DNA from: Turicibacter bilis
Lineage (GTDB): Bacteria; Bacillota_I; Bacilli_A; MOL361; Turicibacteraceae
Assembly: GCF_024499055.1 (NCBI RefSeq)
Contig: NZ_CP071249.1
Location: 1,217,001 to 1,281,000 of the forward strand
Direction of reading: 5' to 3'
Length of the DNA stretch: 64,000 nt
The notes below the pieces were generated by a model, which worked only from the letters and a program-made list of their open reading frames with translations, was not told where the DNA came from and did no database searches. The position numbers were made by a program, and so were the translations under genes. Below are positions 1,571 to 55,607 of this stretch, one piece after another (the stretch's first letter is position 1; every line of letters starts with the position of its first letter).

Positions 1571-2167
1571 CGTAAAAAACGATTCATGATGAATCGTTTT
1601 TTTGTTATAAATCTTCACCGTCTGTTTAAAAAAACCAACAACTTGTTTTAAATCTTGATTAACATAAACTTTGATGACAGTATCCTGTTCCGTTTTAAAG
1701 CGAAAAATCATTTCGCGCTCATTTTCTTTTACTTTTTGGTCAATGAGTGAAACTTGTTTAGCCATGTCATGGTCAGATAAAAAAGCAACTGCCAATTGTT
1801 CTAAGCTTTCTTCACTGTATTCCGTTGGTTCCGAATGAATTTCAACAAAAATCCCATTTAAATCACCCTCTTTATACTCACCAGTCACACGAACCACTTC
1901 ATTATCCTTAGGCTCACTCCCTCTTATTAAAGTCACACGATCCCCCTCATAAATCGGTTCATTTGTTTCTTGATCAATAAGTTCCCCTTCCTTTTGAACT
2001 GTTGCTGAAAAATCATTCAAGACTAACGGAAAATCAAAGTATGTTTGATAATCTTGAACTAAGTAATCAACTAATAACTGATCAGATTCACTTAACTTCT
2101 TTGATGAACATGCACCTAGTAATATTGCAACGCCTAGTAACATCCCCATCCATCTAAAACGTCTCAT
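1517..2167 (-). CDS. Lipoprotein of unknown function, probably C-terminally extended by a lost stop
   Basis: The start is the ATG at 2167, eight bases after a GGAGG; in-frame ATGs upstream lie before that site. A hydrophobic signal ends in a lipobox (LLGAC), so the mature protein should be anchored outside the membrane. The body is acidic and resembles a small DUF-type lipoprotein, but I do not recognise a family. The last 36 residues are encoded across the terminator and into the 3' end of the MATE gene. One extra T in the seven-base run at 1628-1634 would give a stop straight after VVGFF, placing the terminator correctly. A one-base deletion, or a sequencing error, is therefore likely. Confidence 0.7.
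   Translation of the reverse strand: MRRFRWMGMLLGVAILLGACSSKKLSESDQLLVDYLVQDYQTYFDFPLVLNDFSATVQKEGELIDQETNEPIYEGDRVTLIRGSEPKDNEVVRVTGEYKEGDLNGIFVEIHSEPTEYSEESLEQLAVAFLSDHDMAKQVSLIDQKVKENEREMIFRFKTEQDTVIKVYVNQDLKQVVGFFKQTVKIYNKKTIHHESFFTLSPLNSSFSDGLHFCKD
1574..1603. terminator. Bidirectional terminator between convergent genes
   Basis: AAAACGATTCAT pairs with ATGAATCGTTTT, flanked by an A-run on the left and a T-run on the right, so it can stop transcription on both strands. It lies inside the present reading frame of the minus-strand lipoprotein, which suggests that frame has been extended past its original stop. Confidence 0.85.
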
Positions 2168-2261
2168 TGTATATACCTCCATTTCCATATACCTTAATAT
2201 CGGTTAATTCAATTCAAAATAACTAGTTAATCCTCTAAAAAGACAAACTTTCCTTTTGGGG

Positions 2262-2385
2262 ATGTTAAATATATACGTCCTGATAAGTTTTTCATATCGT
2301 AGAAAATAACCCCTACTAGCGTAGGGAACCTCCTAGCAGTGGAAGATACATTTTCTTCGAAAATACCAGGTTTCCCCGTCTCAAA
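2262..2385 (-). repeat. Palindromic repeat array with tail (array 1)
   Basis: Read on the minus strand this has a unit with a perfect central stem (TATTTTCGAAGAAAATGTA), the conserved TTCCACTGCTAGG side, a second short unit (TTCCCTACGCTAGTAGGGG), and then the tail motif ATGAAAAACTTATCAGGAC. It belongs to the same family as the arrays at 4.4, 5.8, 12.3, 44, 48.7 and 52.6 kb. The rest of 2386-2530 holds nothing I can identify. Confidence 0.8.
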
Positions 2386-2530
2386 GCGATTGATGAACTA
2401 AGATTGATTCCAAAAATATGAAATATATTTCGGTTTCTATGCGTCTTATTATATCCCTTATACCTCAAAAGATTTATCTTGAAAAAAAGCCTAAATCATC
2501 AAATTTTTACGATATTCGGACCCTTCATCT

Positions 2531-2623
2531 CTACTTGCATCTTTGACACTCCGACTTTTCCTCTTGATATCCTAATAACACCACACAGATAATTACTTTT
2601 ACAACTTCTAAGATTGCCTTCAT
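2531..2623 (-). CDS. 30-residue hydrophobic peptide, tandem copy A
   Basis: A short frame with a strong Shine-Dalgarno (AAAGGAGG) six bases before the ATG at 2623 encodes MKAILEVVKVIICVVLLGYQ followed by a polar tail. It has one short amphipathic or membrane-spanning segment. It closely resembles the peptide at 2762-2851 (MKRLIEVLRVIVLVVMAGYD plus tail), including the GY motif after the hydrophobic stretch. Conservation between the two copies and the good ribosome sites argue that both are real. Possible roles include a small membrane regulator or a type I toxin-like peptide; the sequence does not decide. Too short for standard gene finders. Confidence 0.6.
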   Translation of the reverse strand: MKAILEVVKVIICVVLLGYQEEKSECQRCK

Positions 2624-2761
2624 CATCAACCTCCTTTATTCAGTTTCTATCTAAAAACAGATTAATTTTTTTACATCTCTACATTCCAACTAAAGTCTTA
2701 AGCCATCATGAACACTGCCTAATTATAAAAGTAATAAAACTCTTGTTAATATAAAAAATAA

Positions 2762-2851
2762 CTACTTCTTATATAGTTCAAAGGTATATTCATCATAACC
2801 AGCCATCACTACTAACACAATCACTCGAAGAACTTCTATTAATCGTTTCAT
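2762..2851 (-). CDS. 29-residue hydrophobic peptide, tandem copy B
   Basis: The ATG at 2851 follows AAGGAGATGATACA, an acceptable ribosome site. The product begins MKRLIEVLRVIVLVVMAGYD and ends with a short charged tail. It is paralogous to the peptide 140 bases downstream on the same strand: both start MK, have a single hydrophobic stretch rich in Val/Ile, and carry GY(D/Q)E at its end. No terminator separates the two genes clearly, so they may be co-transcribed. No family recognised. Confidence 0.6.
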   Translation of the reverse strand: MKRLIEVLRVIVLVVMAGYDEYTFELYKK

Positions 2852-3036
2852 TGTATCATCTCCTTGCTCTTGATGTCTTCATAATACTACTCCAGTTGAT
2901 AATCTCCTATCTCAATACGTGAAAATAATCTTGTAAATTTGTCACCTTCGATATTATTCCTATAAATTGGATATATATTCATAAAATTTACAAAAAGTAA
3001 TATAGATGATTTTTTTACAATATAAATTTGGATTTG

Positions 3037-3065
3037 GCCATAAAAAAACCAGGATTATTTTCCTG
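3037..3065 (-). terminator. Terminator overlapping the hydrolase stop codon
   Basis: On the minus strand GCCAGGAAAATAATCCTGG forms a stem followed by a T-run. The TAA stop of the hydrolase gene lies in its loop region. Confidence 0.8.
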
Positions 3066-4020
3066 GCTTCACATAGGCATTAATAAACTGATAAATTCCG
3101 TCAAAATATTCTTTCTCCATGAGACTATCAGCCTCACAGTGACCGAGTCCTTCAATATACCATAATTTTTTATTTTCATGTGGAATTGCATCATAAATAT
3201 ACTGACTACTTTCAGGAGGCGTCACTTTATCATCTGTTCCATGAATTAAAAGAACAGGAACACTAATATTTTTTACCGCATCAACAGGCTGAATATCATC
3301 ATAAGTTAAATGTTCTTTTACCTTCAAGACAACATTCCCCGCCCATTTAGCAAAACTGACTGGTAAAAATGGAATATCTTCGGCAATAATTCCTAATTCA
3401 ACAGCACTCTCCATCGTATGATATGGCGCATCTAGCACATAAAAATCAACATTTCGTGCTTCTTCATTTAACTCGGTATGCATGGTTGATGTTGCAGCTC
3501 CCATTGAAAATCCGTGTACACCGATAATTCCATCTCGATAAAGTGAACGAGTATACTGTGCAACAGCTTCTAAGTCAAAACGTTCATATAATCCAAACGT
3601 ATAATTATCCCCACCTGTTAATCCCGTATTACGTTGATGATAAACGACGACATTATAACCATTTTCTAAGTAATTAAAAGCAACATTTAAGACTTCATGA
3701 TAATTACTTCCGATTCCGTGTACAACGATCATCGCATCTGATGTTTCCTCGTTAGCTTTAATACTCAGTGTCTCAACTTCGTAATCATTAACTTCACTTT
3801 TAACAAATACCGTCTCATGTTCATAATTTGCAAGAGTATCTAACACTTTATCCTCTCGCGTCGAATAAAACTCTTTCATATCTTCTGCTTTCACAGATGG
3901 TTTCTTTCCAACGGTCCCATCATAGACCATTCCACCAATAATCCAAGTTGCAGCACCTAAAGCAGCTACTGTTGCCGTTGCGGCAATCCCAGACCCAATC
4001 ACAACCTTCTTCTTTTTCAT
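3055..4020 (-). CDS. Membrane-anchored or secreted alpha/beta hydrolase
   Basis: A 321-residue protein with an N-terminal uncleaved signal or signal peptide (residues about 5-33) followed by an alpha/beta-hydrolase fold. Visible elements are the oxyanion HGIGSN stretch near residue 102, the nucleophile elbow GFSMG near 170, the acid HGTDDK near 260 and the catalytic His in GLGHCEAD near 293. The family (serine aminopeptidase S33/BAAT-like, similar to YqkD-type proteins) hydrolyses esters or peptides; the substrate is unknown. The active site should face the outside. It is monocistronic, with a terminator at its stop codon. Confidence 0.85.
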   Translation of the reverse strand: MKKKKVVIGSGIAATATVAALGAATWIIGGMVYDGTVGKKPSVKAEDMKEFYSTREDKVLDTLANYEHETVFVKSEVNDYEVETLSIKANEETSDAMIVVHGIGSNYHEVLNVAFNYLENGYNVVVYHQRNTGLTGGDNYTFGLYERFDLEAVAQYTRSLYRDGIIGVHGFSMGAATSTMHTELNEEARNVDFYVLDAPYHTMESAVELGIIAEDIPFLPVSFAKWAGNVVLKVKEHLTYDDIQPVDAVKNISVPVLLIHGTDDKVTPPESSQYIYDAIPHENKKLWYIEGLGHCEADSLMEKEYFDGIYQFINAYVKPGK

Positions 4021-4354: not shown

Positions 4355-4378
4355 CTTCATCCTCTCCTAATATCTTTT

Positions 4379-4404
4379 AGCTAGACCCATCGGTCTAGCT
4401 TTTC
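4379..4404 (+). terminator. Terminator of the DUF1540 gene
   Basis: AGCTAGACC pairs with GGTCTAGCT over a four-base loop and is followed by TTTTC. Confidence 0.85.
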
Positions 4405-4418
4405 AATTTCCCGGGGAA

Positions 4419-4620
4419 TAGGTTCCCTGGCATTTCCCACGGAAATGTCTCCTCAATTGCTAGGGTATGGGGCCCCCGGCAGTGAGCAAAGCGAACAATC
4501 CTCCATTGCTGGGGTATGGGGCCCCCGGCAGTGAGCAAAGCGAACAATCCTCCATTGCTGGGGTATGAGACGAGCCCCCCCACTTCTAAACAATGTGAAG
4601 CAAATCTTCCACTGGTGGGG
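4419..4620 (+). repeat. Palindromic repeat array 2 (four head-to-tail units)
   Basis: Four units follow one another. The second and third are exact 49-bp copies that differ only in their last bases (GCCCCCGGCAGTGAGCAAAG to GGGTATGGG). The first has the stem CATTTCCCACGGAAATG and the fourth CTTC..GAAG. All keep the TCCTCC or TCTTCC bulge followed by an arm ending in GGGG or AGGG. GC content is higher than that of the surroundings. An apparent 62-codon minus-strand frame here is only a by-product of the repeat. Confidence 0.8.
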
Positions 4621-12343: not shown

Positions 12344-12752
12344 TGGGTCACCTATGCTACGGAGTGAGTTTACGAACTCGTAGCTTTCCTCCGCTGATAG
12401 GGTTTGGGTCACCTACCATTTCCAACGGAAATGTATCCTCCACTAGTAGGGAATGGGTCACCTATGCTACGTAACGAAGTTCGTAGCTTTCCTCCGCTGA
12501 TAGGGTTTGGGTCACCTACTCTAACTGAAAGTTAGGTATCCGCCGCTAGTAGGGAATGGGTCACCTATGCTACGTAACGAAGTTCGTAGCTTTCCTCCGC
12601 TGATAGGGTTTGGGTCACCTACTCTAACTGAAAGTTAGGTATCCACCGCTAGTAGGGAATGGGTCGCCTAGAAGATTGTCAAAGACAATCTAATCTTCAA
12701 CTACTAGGGCTTTAATTTTCCCTATAGAAAATTTGTCGCAACTTATATATTT
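12344..12752 (+). repeat. Palindromic repeat array 4: seven units plus tail
   Basis: Units start at TGGG positions 12344, 12405, 12454, 12508, 12557, 12611 and 12660, with lengths 61, 49, 54, 49, 54, 49 and about 53. Long units (stem GCTACG/CGTAGC, arm CTGATAGGGTT) alternate with 49-bp units (stem CATTTCC/GGAAATG or CTAAC/GTTAG, arm CTAGTAGGGAA). The last unit has yet another stem (AGATTGTC/GACAATCT). Every unit keeps GGGTC(A/G)CCTA at the left, a paired centre, and TCCTCC-type bulge at the right. The tail follows at about 12715-12750. Confidence 0.9.
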
Positions 12753-14586: not shown

Positions 14587-14997
14587 GTGAATATTATTCT
14601 ATCCGGTAATTACGATACACTTTTAAACTTCGATGCATTTGCTGGAATAAGCAGTCATAAGTATGGATTCACAGACAGTGAATTTTTAGCCTTTATTGCC
14701 GATTTAGATCCTACTGAGTACATTCTAGTCATCACTGTCGTAACTATTTTAATTAATATCAATTTAAATATCTTTGAGCAATATGTCGTTTCTGGAGCCC
14801 TCCTTGATATCGCTGTCACTAGTCAGAATATGGTTCAACAAAGAGGATTCCAATTAGCTCGCCAAGGAGAAGCCGTGAGTCAACAACGAAGTGAATATCG
14901 ACAAGAAAACTTTGACAACCTTTATAGTGAAGTCGATAGACTAACGGAAGAATTAAACCAACTAAAATCAAAGATATTCCCTCAACAAACCGATTAG
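14587..14997 (+). CDS. Single-pass membrane protein with C-terminal coiled coil
   Basis: 136 residues if the GTG at 14587 is used. Residues 1-44 look soluble, 45-72 are hydrophobic (EYILVITVVTILININLNIF), and 95-130 form a charged coiled coil. The C-terminus matches the partial protein at the window start. The start is odd: AAGGGGGTGA is an excellent ribosome site, but the GTG lies inside it, and the codons at proper distance are ATT (14593 or 14596). Either initiation is at a rare ATT or the GTG is used inefficiently. Function unknown. Confidence 0.65.
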   Translation: MNIILSGNYDTLLNFDAFAGISSHKYGFTDSEFLAFIADLDPTEYILVITVVTILININLNIFEQYVVSGALLDIAVTSQNMVQQRGFQLARQGEAVSQQRSEYRQENFDNLYSEVDRLTEELNQLKSKIFPQQTD

Positions 14998-15072: not shown

Positions 15073-15430
15073 GTTGATTTACCGTTATCCGTTTTCTATA
15101 TTATCCCAAAAACAAGCACCACAAAATCTTAGTATGCATCTTTCTAACTATGATCCCCTCACTTCAAGTACTAGTGCCTATCATTTTCTTTCTCTTTTTA
15201 CCTCCCCTTATACTAAGACCGACACCCGATCTATCAAAGCCCCTCTATCTCTACCAAAACATTCGAATTATATTTAAACCTTATTGATAGATTCTCTTAT
15301 ATCCAGTTGACCCATTGTCACCTGTTTTGCCACGTTATCTCAAAAAAAACAAGTGCTACAAAATCTTAGCATGTATCTTTCTAACCACGATAACCTCAGT
15401 TCAATTGCTAGTATCTGTTCATCTCACTAA
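15073..15430 (+). repeat. Pair of imperfect direct repeats, about 110 bp
   Basis: Copies at about 15073-15185 and 15305-15420 share GTTGA(T/C), ACGTTATC-type and ACAAAATCTTAG(T/C)ATG(C/T)ATC blocks and CTAGT(G/A)(C/T)CT near the end. They carry no conserved frame. The 67-codon frame inside is not supported by a ribosome site. Origin unknown. Confidence 0.6.
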
Positions 15431-15435
15431 AGAAG

Positions 15436-15576
15436 TTTTAAAATAAAATTGAGGCGATGACAGGGAGAGCGAATCAATGGGATTAGGGGTGAGCTTGCTC
15501 ACCTACTAATAAGAATAGCCCATCGGTAGAAGCTCTCCCCTTATAATATCGCCTCATAGATTTTCTTATTTTAAAA
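15436..15576. repeat. Long multi-stem hairpin element, copy 1
   Basis: The 141-bp segment folds on itself through successive nested stems: TTTTAAAATAA with TTATTTTAAAA, TGAGGCGAT with ATCGCCTCA, GGGAGAGC with GCTCTCCC, ATGGG with CCCAT, and an apical GGTGAGC/GCTCACC. It sits between converging genes and has no frame. The layout matches the element at 19949-20091. It could be a structured RNA, a palindromic MITE or a terminator-like island. Confidence 0.75.
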
Positions 15577-15650
15577 CCATCTACTATTCTTGCCGACCAA
15601 TGTACAATGCTAGCCACTTGACCTGATACCCTCCCTGTGCATCTTAGTAT

Positions 15651-15681
15651 AAAAAAAGACAGCATCTTAAAGATACTGTCT
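15651..15681 (-). terminator. Terminator of the rRNA methyltransferase gene
   Basis: AGACAGTATCTTTAAGATGC closes into an imperfect stem with CTGTCT on the minus strand, followed by seven T. Confidence 0.85.
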
Positions 15682-15687
15682 AAATGA

Positions 15688-17082
15688 TTAGCGTTGTTTT
15701 TTAGATGGGCGGTCTTGGCGAACTAAGCGCACAACAGCCTCAACATGCGATGTTTGTGGGAACATATCCACTGGTTGAATATAGTCCACACGATATTTCT
15801 TCGTTAATTCTTTTAAATTCTTCGCTAACGTCGATGGATTACATGACACATACACAATCGTTTTTGGTTGCACACGTTTTAACATCTCGATTAGCTCAGT
15901 TCCTAATCCTGTACGAGGAGGATCCACAATCACCACATCTGGTTTGAATCCTTCATTCGCCCACTTCGGTACGATTTGTTCTGCTTTACCAACAGCATAG
16001 TATGTATTTGTTAAGCCATTTAATTTTGCATTTTCTTTCGCATCCGCAATGGCTTGACGTGTAATATCTACTCCGCGTACTTCACTTGCTTTATCTGCGA
16101 CCCATTGACCAATTGTTCCAACACCACAATAAGCATCAACCACTTTTTCGTTTCCTTTTAAAGCAGCTGCATATTTGACTTGGTTGTATAATTTAATCGT
16201 TTGTTCTGGGTTTAACTGATAGAACGCGCGTGGAGATAAATTGAACTTGAAGCGTCCTAATTCATCTGAAATGAATTTTTCTCCAGCAATGTGCTTCATT
16301 TCTTTTCCGAAGATTTCATGCGTATCTTCATTGTTAATATTTAAATAAACTGATTTAACATCTGGGCAATATTTCATTAAGTCTTTCGCTAAAGCATTCA
16401 TTTTTCTGAACTCATTGTTAGCGAATACGAATGTCACCTGAACCTCACCTGTTTTAAACCCACGACGAACAACGATATAACGTGCCGTTCCTTTTTTCGT
16501 TTTAGGTGCGTAAGCGAACACTTTGTAATCATCTAATAAATCAACCGCATGATTGATAACTGTGTTAATTTCTTCATATTGAACATCACAATCTGTTACA
16601 TTGACTAATTCACGTGAATTCATGCTATAGAATCCAACCATAACCCCATCCTCGTCATATCCAACTGGCATTTGAGCGCGATTGCGGTAGTTATATGGAT
16701 CTTTCATTCCAATCGTTGGACGGATATCACATTCTTCAGGATCTAAATTCGTATAACGTTCAATCGCTTGTGAAACCGCGTCACGTTTAATACGAAGTTG
16801 CTCTTGATAAGACATATGCTGTAATTGACATCCACCACATTGTCCATAAACTTCACATGCGGGTTGCACACGGTGCTTTGATTTACGTTTCACACGTACC
16901 AGTTCCGCTTCCGCGTAACCACCTGCCACACGCGTACAAGTCGCAACCACTTCTTCACCCACTAACGTTCCTGGAATAAAGACCGCTTGTTTTTTATAAT
17001 ATCCGATTCCCTCACCGTTAATTCCGATGCGTTTAATCGTCACTAAAAATTCTTGACCAACCTTTAAAGGTGACATATTCAT
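15688..17082 (-). CDS. rlmD: 23S rRNA (uracil-5-)-methyltransferase, RlmD/RlmCD-RumA type
   Basis: 464 residues. An N-terminal TRAM domain (about 5-62) precedes a 4Fe-4S-type cysteine set (CEVYGQCGGCQLQ near 76-88 plus a later Cys), then the SAM-dependent methyltransferase domain with VVDAYCGVGTIG, IVDPPRTGLG and the catalytic-nucleophile motif VSCNPSTLAKN near 415. These enzymes make 5-methyluridine in 23S rRNA using SAM. In Bacilli one homologue (RlmCD) modifies both 747 and 1939, so RlmD or RlmCD cannot be told apart by eye. Start ATG 17082 with GGAGG nine bases upstream. Confidence 0.9.
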   Translation of the reverse strand: MNMSPLKVGQEFLVTIKRIGINGEGIGYYKKQAVFIPGTLVGEEVVATCTRVAGGYAEAELVRVKRKSKHRVQPACEVYGQCGGCQLQHMSYQEQLRIKRDAVSQAIERYTNLDPEECDIRPTIGMKDPYNYRNRAQMPVGYDEDGVMVGFYSMNSRELVNVTDCDVQYEEINTVINHAVDLLDDYKVFAYAPKTKKGTARYIVVRRGFKTGEVQVTFVFANNEFRKMNALAKDLMKYCPDVKSVYLNINNEDTHEIFGKEMKHIAGEKFISDELGRFKFNLSPRAFYQLNPEQTIKLYNQVKYAAALKGNEKVVDAYCGVGTIGQWVADKASEVRGVDITRQAIADAKENAKLNGLTNTYYAVGKAEQIVPKWANEGFKPDVVIVDPPRTGLGTELIEMLKRVQPKTIVYVSCNPSTLAKNLKELTKKYRVDYIQPVDMFPQTSHVEAVVRLVRQDRPSKKQR

Positions 17083-17210
17083 CTATTAAAACCTCCAATG
17101 CTTTGTTAAGCTATCCTTTATCTTACCACATTCCCTGTCATTTTACATCGAAATCCCTATATTTCATGATAACTTTCACACATTGATTTGATTATTTTAG
17201 AACCCAATGC

Positions 17211-17238
17211 TTGACTTTTTTATAAAAGATGCTAAAAT
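17211..17238 (+). promoter_or_regulatory. Promoter of the lysine riboswitch transcript
   Basis: TTGACT at 17211-17216 and TAAAAT at 17233-17238 with 16-base spacing. The aptamer begins about 30 bases further on. Confidence 0.7.
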
Positions 17239-17267
17239 AGGCTTAATTGAATATGTCTCTTGTTCTC

Positions 17268-17530
17268 TTTGATGAGTTAGAGGTGCGTGTCCAATGAGTA
17301 GGAATTTCGAGAGTGACGTCGATGACAAATTCTAAAAGGTGTCCACGCCGAAGTCTTGTTTGTGTCAACCAAACTTGTGCTGGTGTTATGTTGAATAAAT
17401 TTAACACTGTCACTACAATTGTAGTGGAGGACTAATGATCGGAGAGTTAAATAATACTTGTCATCTATCGTCTAACAACCTTAGACTTTTTAGAGCCATG
17501 TATGAGTTTAACTCTGCATGGCTCTTTTTT
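17268..17530 (+). promoter_or_regulatory. Lysine riboswitch (L-box) with terminator
   Basis: Conserved L-box blocks are visible in order: TAGAGGTGCG (17278), GAGTAGG, GTGTCCACGCCGAAG, TGCTGGTGTTATGTTGAATA, CTGTCACT and GTGGAGGACTA (about 17434). The expression platform follows: AGAGTTAAA near 17443 can pair with TTTAACTCT near 17507 (antiterminator), while AGAGCCATG 17492-17500 pairs with CATGGCTCT 17517-17525 and is followed by six T (terminator). High lysine should favour termination and shut off the transporter downstream. Confidence 0.93.
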
Positions 17531-17588
17531 CTTTATCAAAAGAACAGCTTCTTATTCAATTGCACTAACAATTGAGGAGAGGATTTAT

Positions 17589-19175
17589 ATGATTGGAACC
17601 ATTTATGCGTTAATTCCGGCACTACTTACGATTGCCCTTGTTATTTTTACGCGCCGTGTCGTATTATCACTCGGGATTGGTGCCATCTCGGCTGCCTTTA
17701 TTTTAGCCAATTTCAATCTCATTCAAACGGTTGAAACGCTTGGATCAACGTTTAGTGGACTTATTTTTGAAAAAGATGGATTAATCGGCTTTTTAAATGA
17801 TTGGAACCTGTCGATTGTTTTCTTCTTACTTGCACTTGGCGCCATTACAGCTTACATCGTCTTATCAGGCGGAGCGTCTGCGTTTACAAAAGCGATTATC
17901 AAACGCGTCAAAACGCGCGAAGGCGTTCAATATACGTCTGCCATTTTAGGAATTTTAATTTTTGTCGATGACTACTTTAATGCCCTAGTTGTCGGAAATG
18001 TCTCAAAACCGTTAGCTCAGCAACAAAAAATTTCACGAGCACGACTAGCTTACATTGTCGATTCAACGTCAGCACCAATCTGTGTGATCTCACCGATTTC
18101 AAGTTGGGCGACTGGAGTGATGGGATCGATGGCAGTTATTTTTGCAAGTACAGGTGCGACGTACAATACGTTCTCTGCTTTCTTAATGACGATTCCTTAT
18201 CATTTCTATGTGATTGTCTCAGTTATCATGGTCTTCATTGTCATTAAATACAATTTAAATCTTGGACTCATGAAAAAATACGAGACGGATACGGTCAATG
18301 GGAATGATAGTTCTCTTACGAGTGCTGAAGTGGCAAACGCTCACGGAGGCGACGTAGAGTCATCAAAAGGAACAGTATGGGATTTAATCGTCCCGATCTT
18401 GACCTTAATCGTCGTGACTATGTTAACGATGGTATATACTGGCTATGTAGGCGCAATGAATAGCGCATCAGACTTCAACTTATTCTTTGCAATCTTAGAT
18501 AACATCAACCTATCAACAGCGCTTCGCTTTGGTGGAGCAGCGGGATTAATCGTCTCAATGGCAATGGCATATCGTCATGTTATAAGTGGTGAAGTCACGC
18601 AGAACCAATATGTCAAAGCCTTCTTCTCAGGAATGAAGTCAATGGTTGGAGCCATTATCGTTTTATTATTAGCATGGGCAATTTGTGAGTTAGTTAGTGC
18701 GTTAGATGCGGGTGGCTACTTAGCCTCTGTCATTACATCAGCGAACATTAATCCAAACTTCATCCCAGTTGTAATGTTCATTGTCGCAAGCTTCATGGCT
18801 TTCGCAACAGGAACGTCATGGGGATCATTTGGAATCTTACTTCCAATTGCTGGTTCAGTCGCAGCGGCGATTGATATGAATTTAATGATTCCAGTGATGG
18901 CTGCTGTTTTATCAGGTGCTATCTTTGGAGATCATGCCTCACCTATTTCAGATACAACCCTTTTATCAGCAACAGGATCAGGTTGTGATTTAGGTGCTCA
19001 CTTTAACTCTCAGTTACCATACGCCCTTTTATCAGCTTGTATCGCTTCACTCGCATACATCGCATTTGGAATGACTGAAAGTTTAATGATTGCCTATCTC
19101 ATCATCATCATTGGCTTCATCGCTACAATCTTTTATGCAAAATCACAAAACAAATCGGAAGCTATCCAAGAATAA
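17589..19175 (+). CDS. NhaC family transporter under a lysine riboswitch (LysW-type, probable lysine importer)
   Basis: 528 residues with about twelve membrane helices and NhaC-family motifs such as DDYFNALVVGNV, STSAPICVISPISSWATG, ATGTSWGSFGILLP and GAIFGDHASPISDTT. NhaC proteins are annotated as Na+/H+ antiporters, but members preceded by an L-box have been predicted to be lysine transporters, and that is the best reading here. The start is the ATG at 17589 after TTGAGGAGAGG; a longer frame from 17502 would begin inside the riboswitch terminator and is rejected. Monocistronic, terminator at 19226. Confidence 0.88.
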   Translation: MIGTIYALIPALLTIALVIFTRRVVLSLGIGAISAAFILANFNLIQTVETLGSTFSGLIFEKDGLIGFLNDWNLSIVFFLLALGAITAYIVLSGGASAFTKAIIKRVKTREGVQYTSAILGILIFVDDYFNALVVGNVSKPLAQQQKISRARLAYIVDSTSAPICVISPISSWATGVMGSMAVIFASTGATYNTFSAFLMTIPYHFYVIVSVIMVFIVIKYNLNLGLMKKYETDTVNGNDSSLTSAEVANAHGGDVESSKGTVWDLIVPILTLIVVTMLTMVYTGYVGAMNSASDFNLFFAILDNINLSTALRFGGAAGLIVSMAMAYRHVISGEVTQNQYVKAFFSGMKSMVGAIIVLLLAWAICELVSALDAGGYLASVITSANINPNFIPVVMFIVASFMAFATGTSWGSFGILLPIAGSVAAAIDMNLMIPVMAAVLSGAIFGDHASPISDTTLLSATGSGCDLGAHFNSQLPYALLSACIASLAYIAFGMTESLMIAYLIIIIGFIATIFYAKSQNKSEAIQE

Positions 19176-19225
19176 GGTCGCTTCCAAAACAAAATCAAAG
19201 GTGGAAAAAATAATTATAGATAACA

Positions 19226-19271
19226 AAAGGAACTAAGTGCAGAGGGGAAACTGCATCTTAGTTCCTTTTTT
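19226..19271 (+). terminator. Terminator of the NhaC-family gene
   Basis: AAAGGAACTAAGTGCAG pairs with CTGCATCTTAGTTCCTTT over an AGGGGAAA loop, followed by T-run. The loop holds GGGGAA, also seen in the hairpins at 20.3 kb. Confidence 0.85.
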
Positions 19272-19512
19272 CTATATTAAAGAGAGGTTGAGAGAATTGG
19301 AGAAGAAAGTCTACATTATATGTATTTAGCATCAAGATGATAAATACATAAGACTTCTGTATTGGTAAATAGAGAACTTCAAGTACAAACTCAAAGTATA
19401 GTCCCACCATGAAAGACTATTAACTTGGGAGGTTATCTCTACACACCCTCATTATAGGCACCCATTCAAAATCCTAAACAAAAATGCGAAAATTTTTTCA
19501 TTATTTTAAGGC
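19272..19512. other. Gene-free stretch with one AT-rich hairpin
   Basis: I see no gene. TATGTATTTAGCATC at 19319 pairs with GATGATAAATACATA ending at 19350, and AGAAG..AGTCT/AGACTTCT can extend the stem. Between here and the hairpin element at 19949 most sequence is AT-rich with no supported feature except the remnant listed next. Confidence 0.4.
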
Positions 19513-19670
19513 TCAACACCAGAATTGGTTCTTGACAAAAAAGTTGATACAAATAGCTGAATCACAGATTTAGAATTTCAGTATTTTATCATTACTAATG
19601 ATGAACCATTAGAGTTAATTTCTTAGTTGAACCAAGTCAAGCACCATTTTTGGTGAAGACTCTATTTTAA
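19513..19670 (+). pseudogene. Decayed copy of the gene pair now at 61.1-61.8 kb
   Basis: Two short matches in the same order: STPELVLD (codons from 19513) resembles SSPKLVLD at the end of the 61088-61348 protein, and SQAPFLVKTLF (codons from about 19635) resembles CQAPFLVKTLKDLF leading into the 61432-61803 frame. Nucleotide differences are partly synonymous, so the similarity reflects former coding sequence. Frames are broken by stops here. Confidence 0.5.
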
Positions 19671-19948
19671 ATATTAATAAATTATCTTCTAAAATCCAGG
19701 CCATTTTTATGGGGACTTCGATAATAACTGTGGGATGATTATCATCCTATTAAAGTCATTTTATACAGTTCACCTTTAATGGTTATACCTAATTTCTTCC
19801 CACTAAATGAATACTTACTTCTCCCAAAACCATTTAACTTAGAAAAGAGATTTTCCTCTCATATTTTTTTATATTATTACTAGTAGAAGTCTTAATAAGC
19901 ACTAGCCACAAAGTAAAAGGTTGATTCAAAATTCATTTTTCCTAGAAA

Positions 19949-20091
19949 TTATGATAATAATAAATAAAATGAGGCAATTTAACGAGGGAGTCTATCATGG
20001 GATGATAAGTGGTGAAACCACTTATCATATGCAATGCCCATTAAAAGCACATCATCGAAAATAAATGCCTCATTTATATTATTATAATTTA
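19949..20091. repeat. Long multi-stem hairpin element, copy 2
   Basis: ATTATGATAATAATAAAT-type and ATTTATATTATTATAAT ends, then TGAGGCA pairing with TGCCTCA, ATGGG with CCCAT, and the apical stem GATAAGTGGT/ACCACTTATC. The order TGAGGC, GGGAG, ATGGGAT, apical hairpin, GCCCAT, GCCTCA is the same as in 15436-15576, although outer and apical stems differ in sequence. No coding frame. Confidence 0.7.
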
Positions 20092-20514: not shown

Positions 20515-21303
20515 TTATTCAATAATCACCGGACTATCTTGTGTCATTAAATATTGCAGTGACTTAAACTCATACCCTTCATTTCGAAGTTCAGGAATTA
20601 ACTTATTTAAACATTCTGCATTATCACTTGAGATACTGTGCATTAACACAATGGCACCCGGATGCATACGTGCTAAAATTTGATTATACGCATAATCCGC
20701 ACCTTTTTGTTTATTCACATCCCAGTCCATATAGGCTAAAGACCATAAAATTGTATAATAGCCACGCTCTTTCGCCCAATCTAACATTTGTTGATTAAAA
20801 TGTCCTTCAGGTGGTCTTAAGTAACGAACCATCTCTTGGCCCGTAATCTCTTTATATTTATCTTCAACTAATTGTAATTCTTCATTAAATTTTTCTTTGT
20901 TGACTTTCGCTAAATCTGGGTGATGCCACGTATGATTGCCGACGATATGTCCCTCATCTGCCATTCGTTTCACAAGTTCCGGATTTTGTTCCATGAAATG
21001 TCCCGTCACAAAGAATAAAGCTGGCACTTGATGTTCTTTTAAAACATCTAAAATTAAGGGTGTATTTCCATTTTCATAACCACAATCAAATGTTAAATAA
21101 ATCATTTTTTGATCGGCGGGACCAATATAATAAGCATCATTTTGACGAATAATATCATCAAACTCTTGACCCGGCCATGGTTGCTCATGATTCTCACCTT
21201 TTGGGATACCCCAGCCTATATCTTTCGCCTCTGCGTGACAAACTGAGATAAAGCATAAGAGGAACGTTAGAACAGTCAACTTCCAACTAAAATGTCGATT
21301 CAT
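20515..21303 (-). CDS. pdaA: Polysaccharide deacetylase, PdaA-like (spore cortex muramic delta-lactam)
   Basis: 262 residues with a signal peptide ending near HAEA and an NodB/CE4 domain: metal-site motif LTFDCGYENGNT, HTWHHPD and RPPEGHFN, plus LMHSIS near the end. The TFDxGYENG variant and total length match Bacillus PdaA, which removes acetyl from N-acetylmuramic acid so that the delta-lactam of the spore cortex can form. The protein should act outside the membrane. The ATG at 21303 is six bases after GAGAGGTG; an in-frame GTG overlaps that site. The nearby gerA operon fits a sporulation role. Confidence 0.85.
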   Translation of the reverse strand: MNRHFSWKLTVLTFLLCFISVCHAEAKDIGWGIPKGENHEQPWPGQEFDDIIRQNDAYYIGPADQKMIYLTFDCGYENGNTPLILDVLKEHQVPALFFVTGHFMEQNPELVKRMADEGHIVGNHTWHHPDLAKVNKEKFNEELQLVEDKYKEITGQEMVRYLRPPEGHFNQQMLDWAKERGYYTILWSLAYMDWDVNKQKGADYAYNQILARMHPGAIVLMHSISSDNAECLNKLIPELRNEGYEFKSLQYLMTQDSPVIIE

Positions 21304-21460
21304 GTTGTTCACCTCTCATTATAAAAGAATTATCACTAATAATTTGTCGAGTTTTGTGTAAAATATACATAAACAACATAAAACCATTTATTAATCATGG
21401 TATGTCCCTTAAACTGACGACATATCATAAATTAAAAACCTTAGTTGGGAGGGACCAATT

Positions 21461-29617: not shown

Positions 29618-30084
29618 TGCTTGTGTTATCGCGAATAATTTAGTGACTTGTCACTAAATGTTCAGTCCTTCCCTCCTGTTGATAGGTACTATGACTTCTG
29701 CTGACTTCCTCTATACATTTTCGATTCCTCAAGATACCCCTACCCTGCATATGCCCTCGTCATATCATGCTTCAGATAGGGTCTATAGTAAGACCTCTCG
29801 GGGTAAGCTCAACCACTTTCCTCTCATCTATCCGTCATATCTACACCCTACTCTTTCGAACCGATTTTGAGCTTTGTTTTGTCCTGTAAACTCACTCAGA
29901 ATCATCTGCCTAATATGCTCCGTATTCCTCGGACCAAGAGTTTGCCTCGACCTTCCTTCAGAGTGCGAAGCCTACTGTAAGTATTCTACCTCTCGATAGA
30001 TACCCTTGGTTTCGGCTAATAGTTCGCTCGGTTTACGCCTACAGTGGACTTTCACCACCTAGTTGTTGTGCATGCCTAGCACAC
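28706..30084 (-). mobile_element. Group II intron, 3'-truncated, inserted in a palindromic repeat
   Basis: On the minus strand the 5' end at 30084 begins GTGTGCTAGGCATGCAC, matching the GUGYG start of group II introns. About 460 bases of structured domain I-IV RNA follow, then the intron-encoded protein. The 3' half of the protein gene and the catalytic domains V-VI are missing; sequence stops at the ClC gene stop codon. The intron is therefore inactive for splicing by itself. Its 5' junction lies inside a unit of the palindromic repeat (30085-30119). Confidence 0.8.
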
Positions 30085-32329: not shown

Positions 32330-32968
32330 ATCATGAAACTTTCAGATATGAGCGGCTTAGAAAAGAATTATTCCAAAATAAGGTCTTACATGCAGATGAG
32401 ACTCCTTATCAAACATTAAATCGAGCGGATGGTAAACCAATAGCTTCTCAAGCAAGGTTTTGATTATTCCGAACGATTAAAAAAACCAAACATTCGATTA
32501 CTTACTATCACACCGATCTGACACGTGAACGTGCAGTCGCAACGACTATCTTAGAAGGATTTCAAGGAAAACTTCATTGTAATGGTTATTCTGGATATAT
32601 AAATATTCCGAACATAGATGTAGTGGGATGTTGGGTTCATTTTCGAGATTCCAGGAAAGAACGTCAAAAATAGCAACAACCGCTTCTCAAACAAATGGTC
32701 GAGGAATTTTTTGAGTGGCTAGAATCCTTCTATGCGATGAAAGGAAAACTTCAAACAGCCGTGATCTATGCCTTAAATCAAAAGGTAGAGCTTTTACGTT
32801 TTTTAGAAGATGAAAACCTCGGAACCTCGAATAATATCGCTGAACAAGCCATTCGTCCAATCGCTATTGGCCGACAGAACTACCTCTTTTCAACGAGTAT
32901 GAAAGGTGCAACAGCTAATGCGATGGCTTACACGATCATTGAAACCGCAAAGGTAAACGCAATTAATC
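32330..32968 (+). pseudogene. IS66 TnpC fragment (copy A) with an uninterrupted insertion site
   Basis: Codons from about 32365 match TnpC: VLHADETPYQTLNRADGKPI, then a TGA instead of Trp, then LDTFLKT-like and TRERAVATTILEGFQ. The N-I-D-V-V-G-C-W-V-H stretch at about 32612-32641 is continuous, so this copy preserves the empty site used by the palindromic repeat in copies B and D. The C-terminal part (32695-32968) has SNNIAEQAIRPIAIGRQNYL. It is cut off at 32968 by the left end of the next IS66. Confidence 0.85.
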
Positions 32969-33236
32969 GTAAGCAAGTAATATAAACATGTCTATTTTGA
33001 TCTCGGTCTTTGAGATATACTTGAGCTATCAAAGATTAGGAGGTCAATTTTTTATGAAAGAAAATCCTATTATCGCCCAGTCTCATTGAATGATTCTCGA
33101 TTAAAAGCTAATTCAGTCTCTGCAATTGAGAGGAAAACACCTGTGTGTCACTTTAAAATCAAGGATGCTGAATTGACATTCTACAATGGTGTCGATAAAC
33201 ATATCCTACATGCGGTTTTAGCGGAGATGTCAAAGT

Positions 33237-33593
33237 ATGCTCGTTAATTTCACAACTGTTCAAAACATCTTCATCGTCTGTGGTCATACTGATATGCGTT
33301 GTGGGATTGACGGGTTAGCTAGTGTTGTCTCAGATAAATATAATCTAGACTTATTTCATGATGCCACCTTCTTGTTTTGTGGCAGAAAAAAGGATCGTTA
33401 TAAAGCTTTATATTGGAATCGCGATGGATTTATGTTATTGTACAAGCGTATCGAAAATGGCAACCTACAATGGCCAAAAGATCAAGATGAAGTCAAGAGG
33501 TTAACCTCACAACAACTTATTTGGCTTTTGGAAGGGTTAGCCATTCAACAACCTAAAGCTATCAAATCAGCTAAAATAGGTTGCCTATATTAA
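33237..33593 (+). CDS. tnpB: IS66 TnpB (orf34-like) accessory protein, copy B
   Basis: 118 residues, full length for the family, with GHTDMRCGIDGLASVV, FLFCGRKKDRYKALYWNRDG and the RIENGNLQWP region. TnpB is needed with TnpC for IS66 transposition, though its activity is unknown. Its ATG overlaps the end of the decayed tnpA. The stretch TTCATCGTCTGTGG here is uninterrupted, in contrast to copy D. Confidence 0.88.
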   Translation: MLVNFTTVQNIFIVCGHTDMRCGIDGLASVVSDKYNLDLFHDATFLFCGRKKDRYKALYWNRDGFMLLYKRIENGNLQWPKDQDEVKRLTSQQLIWLLEGLAIQQPKAIKSAKIGCLY

Positions 33594-33700
33594 TAGAAAT
33601 AAGATATTTTATCGAAAAATCTCTTATTTCTATTTTCATCTTTTCTAAGATTAGGTATACTAGCTCTAACGATAAACCCTTTTGAAAGTAGGCGAATTTG

Positions 33701-35274
33701 ATGACAGAACTTGAACAAAACTTATTCTCACAAGTTAAAGACTTAACAGAACAAAACAAAGAGCTTCTAGAACAATTTCGCCAATTAACAAAAAAGATTC
33801 AGTACATGAATAAAAAGCTATTTGGTTCTTCAAGTAAGAAAACTAAAGTAACTGAGGGACAAATTTCACTATTTGATTCAGAAAATTTTTTGAAGAGACA
33901 GAGACAACTGAGGAATAAACCGTCGAAGAAATAACCTACCGACGTAAAAAACAAAAAGGAAGAAAATCTGAATTAATCAAAGACTTACCCGTTAAAGAAA
34001 TTCATTTTCAATTACACGGTGATAATTGCCGATGTGATCACTATGGGAATGAAATGAAACAGATAGGAAAAAGATGAGTCGTGAAGAAGTTTGCTTTATT
34101 CCAGCTCGATTATATAAAAAGCGATACATTAGCTATACATATGCTTGTAGTTGTCATGATGAATCCATTGAAGACAAACCGATTCGTTATGCCGAGACAC
34201 CAAAAGCTCCGATTCAAAGAAGCTTTGCCGGGGCCAGTGTGTTAGCTGAAGTTTTTCATCAAAAATATGTTTTAAGTATCTCTTGTTATCGACAAGTATC
34301 AGAATGGAAGCGATATGGATTGAGTTTGAGCGATAAAACTCTCTTGAATTGAATTATAATTGCTTCACATAATTGGTTATCACCGATTTACGAGCGACTT
34401 AAAGATGAGTTGATTCAAAATAAAGTCTTACATGCGGATGAAACGCCCTATCAGATCTTAAATCGAACGGATGGGAAACCAGCGACTTCTCAAGCAAGGG
34501 TTTGGTTATTCCGAACGATTAAAAATGCAGGTTATCCGATTGCTTACTATCATGTGGATCTCACACGTGAACGCGCAGTCGCAACAACGATCTTAGAAGG
34601 GTTCCAAGGATACCTTCATTGTGATGGTTATTCTGGCTATAAAAATCTTCCGAGTATTGATTTAGTGGGTCACCTGCCATTTACGAAGTAAATGTCTCCT
34701 CCACTGGTAGGGAATAGGATGTTGGGCTCACGTCAGAAGAAAGTTTTACGAGATTCCAGGAAAAAACGGTAAAGCAGAAAAATCAGTCAAGTACTGCGAT
34801 TAAATCTTTCATTTTGAGAAGACCATTAAGATGCTTTCTCCTGAAGAACGACAAAAGCAACGACAACTGATCATTAAACCAGTGATCGAGAAATTTTTTG
34901 AGTGGCTAGAATCCCTCTATGCGATGAAAGGGAAACTTCAAACAGCAGTGACGTATGCCTTAAATCAAAAGGTAGAGCTTTTACGTTTTTTAGAAGATGG
35001 AAATCTTGAAGCCTCGAATAATCTAGCTGAACAAGCGATTCGTCCATTAGCTATTGGTCGCAAAAACTATCTCTTTTCAACCAGTATGAAAGGAGCGGCA
35101 GCGAATGCGATGGCTTATCCGATCATCGAAACTGCTAAAGACAATGGATTGAATCCATCAAAATATCTTAACTATTTATTTGAAAAACTACCCAATATGG
35201 ACTTCATTAGAAATCCAGACATACTGGTAGACTTTTTGCCATGGGCAAAAAACGTACAAGTGATTTGTCAGTAA
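33701..35274 (+). pseudogene. tnpC: IS66 TnpC transposase, copy B, broken
   Basis: The chain can be followed from TELEQNLFSQVKDLTEQNKE (coiled coil) through the zinc-finger-like region, ADETPYQILNRTDGKP (DDE Asp) and SNNLAEQAIRPLAIGRKNYL to the C-terminal DFLPWAKNVQVIC. It is broken by stops near 33932, 34077 and 34350, and by a 49-bp palindromic repeat at 34670-34718 between codons for LVG and CWAHV. Confidence 0.9.
34670..34718 (+). repeat. 49-bp palindromic repeat inserted in tnpC copy B
   Basis: TCACCTGCCATTTACGAAGT at the left, TCCTCCACTGGTAGGGAATA near the right; stem CATTTACGAAGTAAATG. Removing exactly 49 bp restores GTGGGATGTTGGGC and the reading frame LVGCW, as in the uninterrupted copy A. 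Confidence 0.92.
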
Positions 35275-50654: not shown

Positions 50655-50796
50655 TCAATCATAAACAACAATGACATAGGGAGAGCGAAATAGTTTTCAC
50701 ATCCTAAGAAGCAAGCTGAGTTGATGAGTCTTGTTATTAAAAAGACTAACCAAAATCCCGCTAAAAGATTTTCAACGATGAAAAACTATCCCCTAC
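50655..50796. other. Intergenic sequence with a decayed piece of the long hairpin element
   Basis: AATGACATAGGGAGAGCGAA at 50670 resembles GATGACAGGGAGAGCGAATC in the 15436 element, but the matching 3' arm is absent. Near 50785 ATGAAAAACTATCCCCTACT loosely resembles the repeat tail. Confidence 0.4.
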
Positions 50797-52404: not shown

Positions 52405-52581
52405 CGTCTCCCTCCTATATTGCCCCATCTCTCATTTAAGCTTCATCGTTGACTCCTAATAAAAATCTTATTAAAAATAAAAATTTCTTATACCTATCTA
52501 TTATATAAATAGAAATGTATTTCACATTTTCTAATTCATCTCAGTACGTTAGTCTTTTTGATAGTAAGACAGACTATCGTC

Positions 52582-52770
52582 CAGGGGTCACCTACCATGC
52601 GCAGCATGTCTCCTCCTTTGGTAGGGAACGGGTCACCTGCCATGCACAGCATGTCTCCTCCTTTGGTAGGGAACAGGTCAGCTACCATTTTCTAGGGAAA
52701 TTTATCTACCGTTAGTAGGGCTTAAAAGTTTTCCGATATGAAAAACTTATCTGGACTTATATATATAATA
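52582..52770 (+). repeat. Palindromic repeat array 6: three units and tail
   Basis: Two near-identical units (GGGTCACCTACCATGCGCAG.. and GGGTCACCTGCCATGCACAG.., both ending CCTTTGGTAGGGAACxGG) and a third (CAGCTACCATTTTCTAGGGA..TAGTAGGGCTT). The tail GATATGAAAAACTTATCTGG is at 52735. Stems are CATGCGCAGCATG, CATGCACAGCATG and ATTTTCTAGGGAAAT. Confidence 0.88.
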
Positions 52771-53522: not shown

Positions 53523-53917
53523 TTTCTCGAATGTTCAAAACATATTCATTCCCTACCAGTGGAGGAGATATTTACTTCGTAAATGGTAGGTGACCCATCG
53601 TTTGTGGTCACACAGATATGCGCTGTGGCATTGATGGACTAGCAGGTATCATCACAGACAAGTATAATCTTGATTTATTTAACGATGCCCTTTTCCTATT
53701 TTGTGGACGAAAAAAAGACCGATTCAAAGCCCTTTATTGGGATAAAGACGGTTTTATCTTATTATATAAACGGATTGAGAAGGGTAACCTTCAATGGCCA
53801 CGAAACCAAGAAGAAGTCAAAAAATTAACGAGTCAGGAGCTTCGTTGGCTACTTGAAGGCTTATCTATCCAACAACCTAAAGCCATTAAACCAGCTCAAA
53901 CAGGATGTCTGATTTAA
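53512..53917 (+). pseudogene. tnpB: IS66 TnpB, copy D, interrupted by a 49-bp repeat
   Basis: Starts MLVNFSNVQNIFI and resumes after the insertion with CGHTDMRCGIDGLAGIITDK. Insertion 53550-53598 breaks the frame after eleven or twelve codons. Without it the protein would be 118 residues, like copy B. Confidence 0.9.
53550..53598 (-). repeat. 49-bp palindromic repeat inserted in tnpB copy D
   Basis: Minus strand GGTCACCTACCATTTACGAA onward to CCACTGGTAGGGAATG, stem CATTTACGAAGTAAAT. The plus-strand flanks CATATTCAT and CGTTTGTGG join to the uninterrupted form seen in copy B (CATCTTCATCGTCTGTGG) after removal of exactly 49 bp. Confidence 0.92.
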
Positions 53918-53980: not shown

Positions 53981-55607
53981 ATGAATCATTTAGAAAAAGA
54001 GGTGGCACCGTTGAGTACGTTTGAATCGAAACTAATCAAAGAAAATCAGAACCTATTAAAAAAATTGGATCAACAAACTCAACGAATCACTGAACAAGAT
54101 CAACAAATTAAACAATTAACTGAACAGGTTGAATTTTTAACAAAAAAGCTTTATGGATCCTCAAGCGAGAAAACTAAAATTGATCCAAATCAACTCTCAC
54201 TTTTTGAGGATCCTCATTTAGAAAACCACGAAACAAAGACTGAACCCACAGAAGAAATCACGTATCGTCGACGTAAGGCATCCGGTCGTAAAGCCGAGTT
54301 AACCAAAGATTTACCCGTTGAAGAAATTCACTGTGAGTTACATGGTGAAGATTGCCAATGTGAGTCTTGTGGTGAAAAGATGAAACCGATAGGAAAGAAA
54401 ATTATTCGTGAAGAGGTTTGTTTTATCCCAGCCAAGTTATATAAAAAAGTGTACTATTCACACGCTTATAAGTGTGATTGTGGTGATGATTTCTATGAAC
54501 CACAGCCCATTCAATGTGCCGAAGTCCCTAAAGGACCGATCCAAAGGAGCTTAGCTGGGCCTAGTGTTCTAGCCTGGATGATTCATCAAAAGTATGAATT
54601 AAGCCTCCCCCTTTATCGTCAAGAGAAAGAATGGAAGACGTATGGTTTAGAATTAAGTCGACGCACCATGGCGAACCGGATGATCAAAGTCGCCAATGAT
54701 TGGTTACGCCCAATTTATGATTCTTTCGCTAAGCTCATCGTAAAGGAAGAAGTTCTTCATGCCGATGAAACGTACTATCAAGTACTAAATCGAATGGATG
54801 GACGTGACGCAACCTCTCAAGCACGAATCTGGTTAATTCAAACAGGTAAAGAATGCGAAACACCTATCGTTTATTATCACGCAGATTTAACTCGTGCAAG
54901 AGTCGTCGCGGAGCAATTACTCGATGGACTTAAAGGCTACCTGCATTGTGATGGGTATTCCGGATATAAGAACTTACCGAATATTGAATGAGTGGGTCAC
55001 CTGCCATTTACGAAGTAAATGTCTCCTCCACTGGTAGGGAATGGGGTGTTGGGCTCATGCACGCCGCAAATTTAAGGATGTGCCAGGAAAGAATGGAAAA
55101 GCGAAACAAGCCATTGACTACTGTAACCAAATTTTTAAGATTGAACGAGAACTTCAGGAATTATCGCCTGAGGAGCGTTATGAGCAACGTCAGTTACAGG
55201 TCAAGCCAGTGATTGAGGCTTTTTATGACTTTCTAGGGAGCTTCATCCCCATGAAAGGTAAGTTACAAACTGCGGTTCACTATGTTTTAAATCAAAAGAA
55301 AGAACTGATGGCATTTTTGAAAGATGGACGATTAGAAGCATCGAATAATCGTGCCGAACGTGCCATCAAAACCGTGGTGATTGGACGGAAAAATTACTTA
55401 TTTTCAACAAGCTTATCAGGGGCTGAAGCCAATGCGATTATCTATAGTGTGATTGAAACAGCGAAAGAGCACGGCTTAAATGTTTATAAATATTTAACTT
55501 ATTTATTTGAACACCTACCAAATGTTGAGTTTTTAATGAAACCAAAGCTCTTGGAGGACTTTTTACCATGGGCAAAAAATGTTCAAGAACATTGTAAAGG
55601 AATCTAA
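53981..55607 (+). pseudogene. tnpC: IS66 TnpC transposase, copy D, interrupted by a stop and a 49-bp repeat
   Basis: The N-terminal 336 residues contain a coiled coil (about 20-60), the CxxC zinc finger HGEDCQCESCGEKM and the DDE region with HADETYYQVLNRMDGRD. An in-frame TGA at 54989 and the insertion 54997-55045 end the frame; it resumes as GCWAHARRKFKDVPGKNGKA and continues to ASNNRAERAIKTVVIGRKNY (catalytic Glu) and DFLPWAKNVQ. A better start may be the TTG at 54011 after GAGGTGG. Confidence 0.92.
54997..55045 (+). repeat. 49-bp palindromic repeat inserted in tnpC copy D
   Basis: 48 of 49 bases match the insertion at 34670-34718 (the only difference is in the last three bases, GGG versus AGG). 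Removal restores GTGGGGTGTTGGGC. Confidence 0.92.

Follow-up and report, generated by a model that had tools for sequence, protein, structure and literature searches.

A lineage-specific structured hairpin repeat between convergent genes of Turicibacter bilis

Introduction

The bcr repeats of the Bacillus cereus group are described as interspersed elements of 100–400 bp, restricted to the group and carrying no gene (PMC6542083). Hairpins in nascent transcripts are reported to position and stabilize head-on polymerase collisions, and such collisions to end the transcription of convergent genes (PMC13082048). Terminators are reported to show compensatory change and to be more strongly constrained when two convergent genes rely on a single segment (PMC5381666). 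In a limited search of open-licence papers on related topics, no paper described the hairpin family treated here by its title or the start of its abstract.

In this study, two hairpin elements (A and B) were analyzed in a window of 64,000 nucleotides, positions 1,217,001–1,281,000 of the 2,786,784 bp contig NZ_CP071249.1 (genome 2.79 Mb). A and B are members of a lineage-specific family of imperfect palindromes of about 105–150 bp with one architecture. The element is a lineage-specific structured hairpin repeat and belongs in kind to the structured intergenic repeats. Intergenic repeats are usually recognized by their letters; the paralogous copies in this genome have a common shape, and most of their stem letters have been replaced in pairs.

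Results

Fold and architecture

The initial annotation had placed two long multi-stem hairpins of one architecture in the window, and both were present and folded strongly. The whole fold of copy A spans 15435–15577 (+), with the conserved blocks in a core at 15450–15556 (+); that of copy B spans 19947–20090 (+), with its core at 19970–20072 (+). Both copies are covered by the covariance models R1–R3 given below. The RNA fold energy was −56.6 kcal/mol for A (z −7.1) and −43.2 kcal/mol for B (z −6.6), and neither value was reached by any of 200 shuffles. The opposite strands folded about equally well, with z −7.7 for A and −5.9 for B. The A/B global alignment score was reached by none of 1000 dinucleotide shuffles of B, and the local score by one of 1000.

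The blocks TGAGGC, GGGAG, ATGGGAT, apical hairpin, GCCCAT and GCCTCA occurred in this order in both copies, as had been noted. On the plus strand, ATGGGAT lies at 15477–15483 in A (genome 1232477) and 19997–20003 in B (genome 1236997), and GCCCAT at 15518–15523 and 20036–20041, respectively. The observation that the stems differ in sequence and still pair held for the apical and the outermost AT-rich stems of both copies; the pairs GGTGAGC/GCTCACC and AAGTGGT/ACCACTT, given in the annotation for outer and apical stems, are apical.

From the outside inward, the layers are an AT-rich outer stem, a GC-containing stem, an inner stem, the ATGGG/CCCAT pairing and an apical hairpin of variable sequence. 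ATGGGAT and GCCCAT around the apical hairpin were common to most copies. As exceptions, the minimum-energy fold of copy C paired differently near GCCCAT, D2 had no GCCCAT as such, and E had ATGAG instead of ATGGG. In A, B and E, an 8-nt bulge on the 3′ side separated the apical hairpin from CCCAT; in D and D′, a second hairpin replaced it. The folds of the copies were 106–153 bp long.

The fold is kept by paired changes among the copies, though most stem letters differ. In an alignment of seven copies, 88.5% of the cells paired, against 74.0% in shuffles, and both sides had changed at 13 of 24 pairs. The covariation score was 0.496 against a shuffle mean of 0.227 (reached by 0 of 500) and 0.065–0.139 for slid versions; these controls are generous, because the rows are few, partly chosen by a model (D2) and partly related (C/C2 and D/D′). 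D′ had fewer pairs than D, a few having been lost.

A decayed piece had been proposed near 50670. It shared only an 11-mer with A, and about three such matches per window are expected by chance. Its fold was not above chance (z −1.39), and three covariance models left it unmatched at E ≤ 10, so the proposal was abandoned.

Copies and searches

A covariance search had been suggested, and it brought out further members in the same genome. Together with motif and fold scans, it gave eight copies at six loci and one fragment, D3, which corresponds to the 3′ half of a copy of the D type (genome 2,593,720–2,593,834). The pattern ATGGGAT-N20–45-GCCCAT occurred at five places in the genome: A, B, C (1,211,782–1,211,888), D (1,641,894–1,642,004, minus strand) and L006. 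L006 was rejected as a member, since it matched the pattern yet folded no better than matches in other genomes. A and B were the only inputs of model R1, which recovered C from the whole genome at E 5e-6; on sampled DNA it gave C2, a near twin of C 338 bp away, and a weak match, D2, beside D. D′, a near twin of D, came to light when each occurrence of TGGGAT in a sample of 464 kb was folded. Model R2, built from seven copies (A, B, C, C2, D, D′ and D2), returned these seven inputs and no other from the genome, having scored 128 of 598 first-look candidates. On a further 400 kb of fresh sequence it found E (genome 1,555,765–1,555,866; 26.6 bits, E 0.0097), which folds into the same architecture as A and B (z −4.27). 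Model R3, the R2 set plus E, returned the same eight copies from the genome (39 of 767 first-look candidates scored), and gave no match in another 400 kb from genome parts with opposite GC skew. The whole-genome model searches score part of the first-look candidates and R2 missed E there, so absence is not proof.

In other genomes, R2 (29 genomes) and R3 (99 relatives, four congeners among them) gave nothing above noise, with four matches at E 0.29–0.86. No plasmid relatives of A and B were found. Three exact patterns gave no match in viral contigs; these patterns are strict, and diverged copies would escape them. The same short pattern in 59 other genomes gave scattered matches without an evident inner hairpin by eye. 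When 23 of 28 such loci were folded (five lacked full flanks), only one, which was GC-rich, fell below −40 kcal/mol; all four own copies A–D did so at a GC content of 0.30–0.41. A scan for long hairpins that used nesting depth had no discriminating power. When the stretches of the 464 kb sample were ranked by GC-corrected energy, A, B, C2, D, D′ and D2 came within the top 45, alongside many ordinary terminators. All eight copies lie at 1.21–1.64 Mb; this region was also sampled most densely, so no clustering is claimed. A link of the copy positions to the replication terminus was rejected, as no lasting GC-skew switch occurred within the sampled 1.02–1.89 Mb.

Placement between convergent genes

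The spacer of A is convergent, between a 136-aa ORF (+, 14587–14997) and an rlmD/TrmA-like methyltransferase gene (−, 15688–17082). That of B is also convergent, between an NhaC-type antiporter gene (+, 17502–19175) and a pdaA-like deacetylase gene (−, 20515–21312). A lysine riboswitch (Rfam RF00168, 111.7 bits) is located at 17270–17442, just upstream of the antiporter gene. The neighbors were tail to tail at A, B, C/C2, D/D2 and E, that is, at five of six loci as annotated. At D′, the nearest left ORF was the transposase of an insertion element nested inside the D′ unit, and the pair was convergent once this element was set aside, which gives six of six. In 1,264 kb of the genome, 15.2% of the spacers and 16.6% of the intergenic length are convergent. 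The chance of six of six is about 2e-5, and that of at least five of six about 6e-4. Placement was not a criterion in any copy search.

The nested element (L217, about 1915–3320; genome near 1,412,414–1,413,820) encodes a 370-aa transposase and is flanked by the 8-bp repeat TTAATAGA. Judged by eye from the protein and the repeat, it is probably IS256-like.

Another family of hairpin repeats in this sample was placed in tandem spacers seven times, in divergent spacers twice and in a convergent spacer once (1 of 10 placed arrays), with one array at an edge left unplaced. Since this family is mostly non-convergent, confinement to convergent junctions is not general for repeats here. Its tandem arrays are built from units of about 50 bp that carry a motif resembling GGGTATGGGTCACC as well as small hairpins (GCGAAGC and variants), the stems of which vary in pairs. 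The arrays are at 4376–4570, 12344–12670, 52496–52769, 53547–53598 and 54990–55046 of the window and also in L045, L046, L048, L050 and L058, mostly in tandem spacers.

Intrinsic terminators stood on both sides of B (minus strand by scan; plus-strand hairpin and T run by eye) and of C (by eye). The terminator scans of the A and B spacers gave only the neighbors' terminators and none at A or B. The GC-rich stem plus T run of an intrinsic terminator was absent at A and B, and no T run was seen by eye after the outer stem.

Ends, flanks and history of the copies

The initial annotation had left the choice between a structured RNA family and a palindromic MITE. The eight copies and the covariation support a structured family with multiple members; the element is not a classical MITE, since the ends differ between subfamilies, target duplications are lacking and no autonomous partner was found in first-look searches. 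The outermost stems of A, B, D and E had unrelated letters, and common ones were present only within the twins C/C2 and D/D′. Target duplications, which had been named as a sign to look for, were not seen beyond chance, except for a 7-mer at D′: the flanking direct repeats were at most 4 bp at seven of eight copies and 7 bp (TTTTAAT, overlapping the stem) at D′, and random places have a flanking repeat of at least 4 bp about half the time. No autonomous element with the ends of A or B was found by first-look DNA similarity; the same search for B found partner ends of a neighboring MITE-like element.

This MITE-like element of about 165–185 bp lies at 19501–19685, 285 bp from the core of B. It has relatives elsewhere in three congeners with 76–90% identity, and both of its ends match pairs of places 1.3–1.4 kb apart in the genome, the pattern expected of an autonomous insertion element. 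A direct repeat of 68 bp (82% identity) occupies 15108–15175 and 15345–15412, the second copy just upstream of A. Group II intron pieces and fragments of IS66-type orf2 and transposase were found at 29665–29979 (−), 32695–35274 (+) and 53618–53917 (+).

In the congener G001, the antiporter–deacetylase spacer was without about 780 bp of the present sequence (the MITE-like element and B), and the usp–tpiA spacer was without about 565 bp (C and C2), down to two terminators. G003 likewise was without the B stretch, and G004 carried other sequence there. At the A and D loci, synteny was broken on one side, which made them uninformative on gain or loss. C and C2 were 97.7% alike over 133 bp; beyond this, one 36-bp stretch near register was alike at 80.6%. 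D and D′ were 86% alike over 405 bp, with mismatches at 11 of 151 positions in the element and 34 of 246 in the flanks (p = 0.051). The element therefore seems to change more slowly than its flanks, which is weakly shown by this comparison. The copies seem to arise by duplication together with the surrounding DNA. A reading of D and D2 as two ends of one transposon was rejected by eye: the stretch beyond D2 was an ordinary terminator, and no D2 was present beside D′. The 62-aa ORF beside D had no Pfam or NCBIfam family and was frame-shifted in D′ (by eye).

Discussion

Interpretation

The leading reading, given a probability of roughly 0.38 and least certain in its mechanism, is that the element is a two-strand transcript hairpin limiting read-through between convergent genes. 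The hairpin would be present in transcripts from either side because the palindrome folds about equally on both strands, and a transcript from either facing gene would form it behind the polymerase. It may help to fix the stop site of convergent transcription, holding both polymerases near one place, and may shield 3′ ends. New copies would arise through duplication with the surrounding spacer DNA, not as an autonomous transposon. This mechanism fits the placement, symmetry and covariation. It leaves the conserved ATGGGAT/GCCCAT and the bulge unexplained, as a plain hairpin needs neither. The absence of a T run after the outer stem and the pairs that D′ has lost also count against it. A further stop is not needed at B and C, because both have terminators on both sides, and the hairpin is dispensable to the genus, because it is absent in relatives. 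It is rather doubtful that these repeated multi-stem hairpins, with their conserved motif and bulge, are a dedicated mark of convergent gene junctions that one lineage recruited for resolving head-on transcription and that is maintained through its shape, not its letters.

About as likely as the transcript hairpin is a mobile palindrome that is non-autonomous and read by its shape, comparable in a broad sense to bcr repeats or REP. Its mobilizing enzyme would read the folded strand, so that letters drift in pairs and the fold stays, and copies in harmless tail-to-tail spacers would persist. The stretches absent from the orthologous spacers of G001 point to gain in the present lineage, and the near-identical twins and a genome rich in other repeats and insertion elements agree with mobility. 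The ends argue the other way, with the 7-mer of D′ as the only target duplication beyond chance, subfamilies without common ends, and no autonomous partner found by DNA similarity. Similarity between the twins extends beyond the element, to 36 bp near C and to 405 bp for D, and this suggests segment duplication. Moreover, the other repeats of this genome also occur outside convergent spacers, and the placement would be unexplained. Independently transcribed structured non-coding RNAs with their own promoters, in which ATGGGAT/GCCCAT and the bulge bind a putative protein, would account for the conserved internal motif, the constant-length bulge of A, B and E and the covariation of the stems. 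The mismatches on the named strand in seven copies (14 G-T, 7 A-C) lean weakly to that strand as RNA, with a ratio that is not significant. This explanation is unlikely: upstream promoter-like scores were 8–9 of 12 at best, the same as in random window stretches; there was no common upstream block and no terminator tail; A and B had no Rfam 15 match at the gathering score or E ≤ 5; and the family is confined to one genome. Very improbable is that unrelated hairpins are alike by chance or convergent evolution. In its favor, letter identity among A, B, C, D and E is low beyond two short motifs; model searches supplied D2 and E; and A and B were already in view when the sequence seeds were picked. 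Such an origin does not agree with the A/B global score that no shuffle reached, with the single comparable, GC-rich fold among the folded loci of other genomes, or with a placement that agrees though it was unused in the searches. Common descent of the subfamilies is inferred.

Should the placement be functional, the family would offer a natural and countable set on which hairpins in convergent transcription can be tested. Otherwise, it exemplifies palindromes that are read by their shape and escape repeat finding based on BLAST.

Comparison with known systems

The element resembles MITEs in length, palindromic shape and the absence of a gene. Copies of a MITE retain the same ends and correspond to an autonomous element; here, the ends vary by subfamily and no partner was found. 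Restriction to a single lineage and lack of a gene are shared with bcr repeats. In PMC6542083, bcr mobility is tied to TTTAT motifs and copies are detectable by BLAST with a consensus, whereas none of the eight copies here had TTTAT at both ends and the subfamilies are not detectable in that way. According to PMC3733652, REP and BIME are likewise palindromes outside genes; they lie downstream of genes in both unidirectional and convergent spacers and may act as RNA. REP elements are described there as 20–40 bp long, high in copy number and often GTAG- or CGTC-tagged, whereas the present family has eight copies of 105–150 bp, almost only in convergent spacers. Bidirectional terminators and head-on hairpins, as presented in PMC13082048 and PMC5381666, are similar in being readable from both strands, lying between convergent genes and showing compensatory change. 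The hairpins in those accounts are single and gene-specific, whereas those described here have no T run, combine several stems with a conserved internal motif, and occur as a repeated family.
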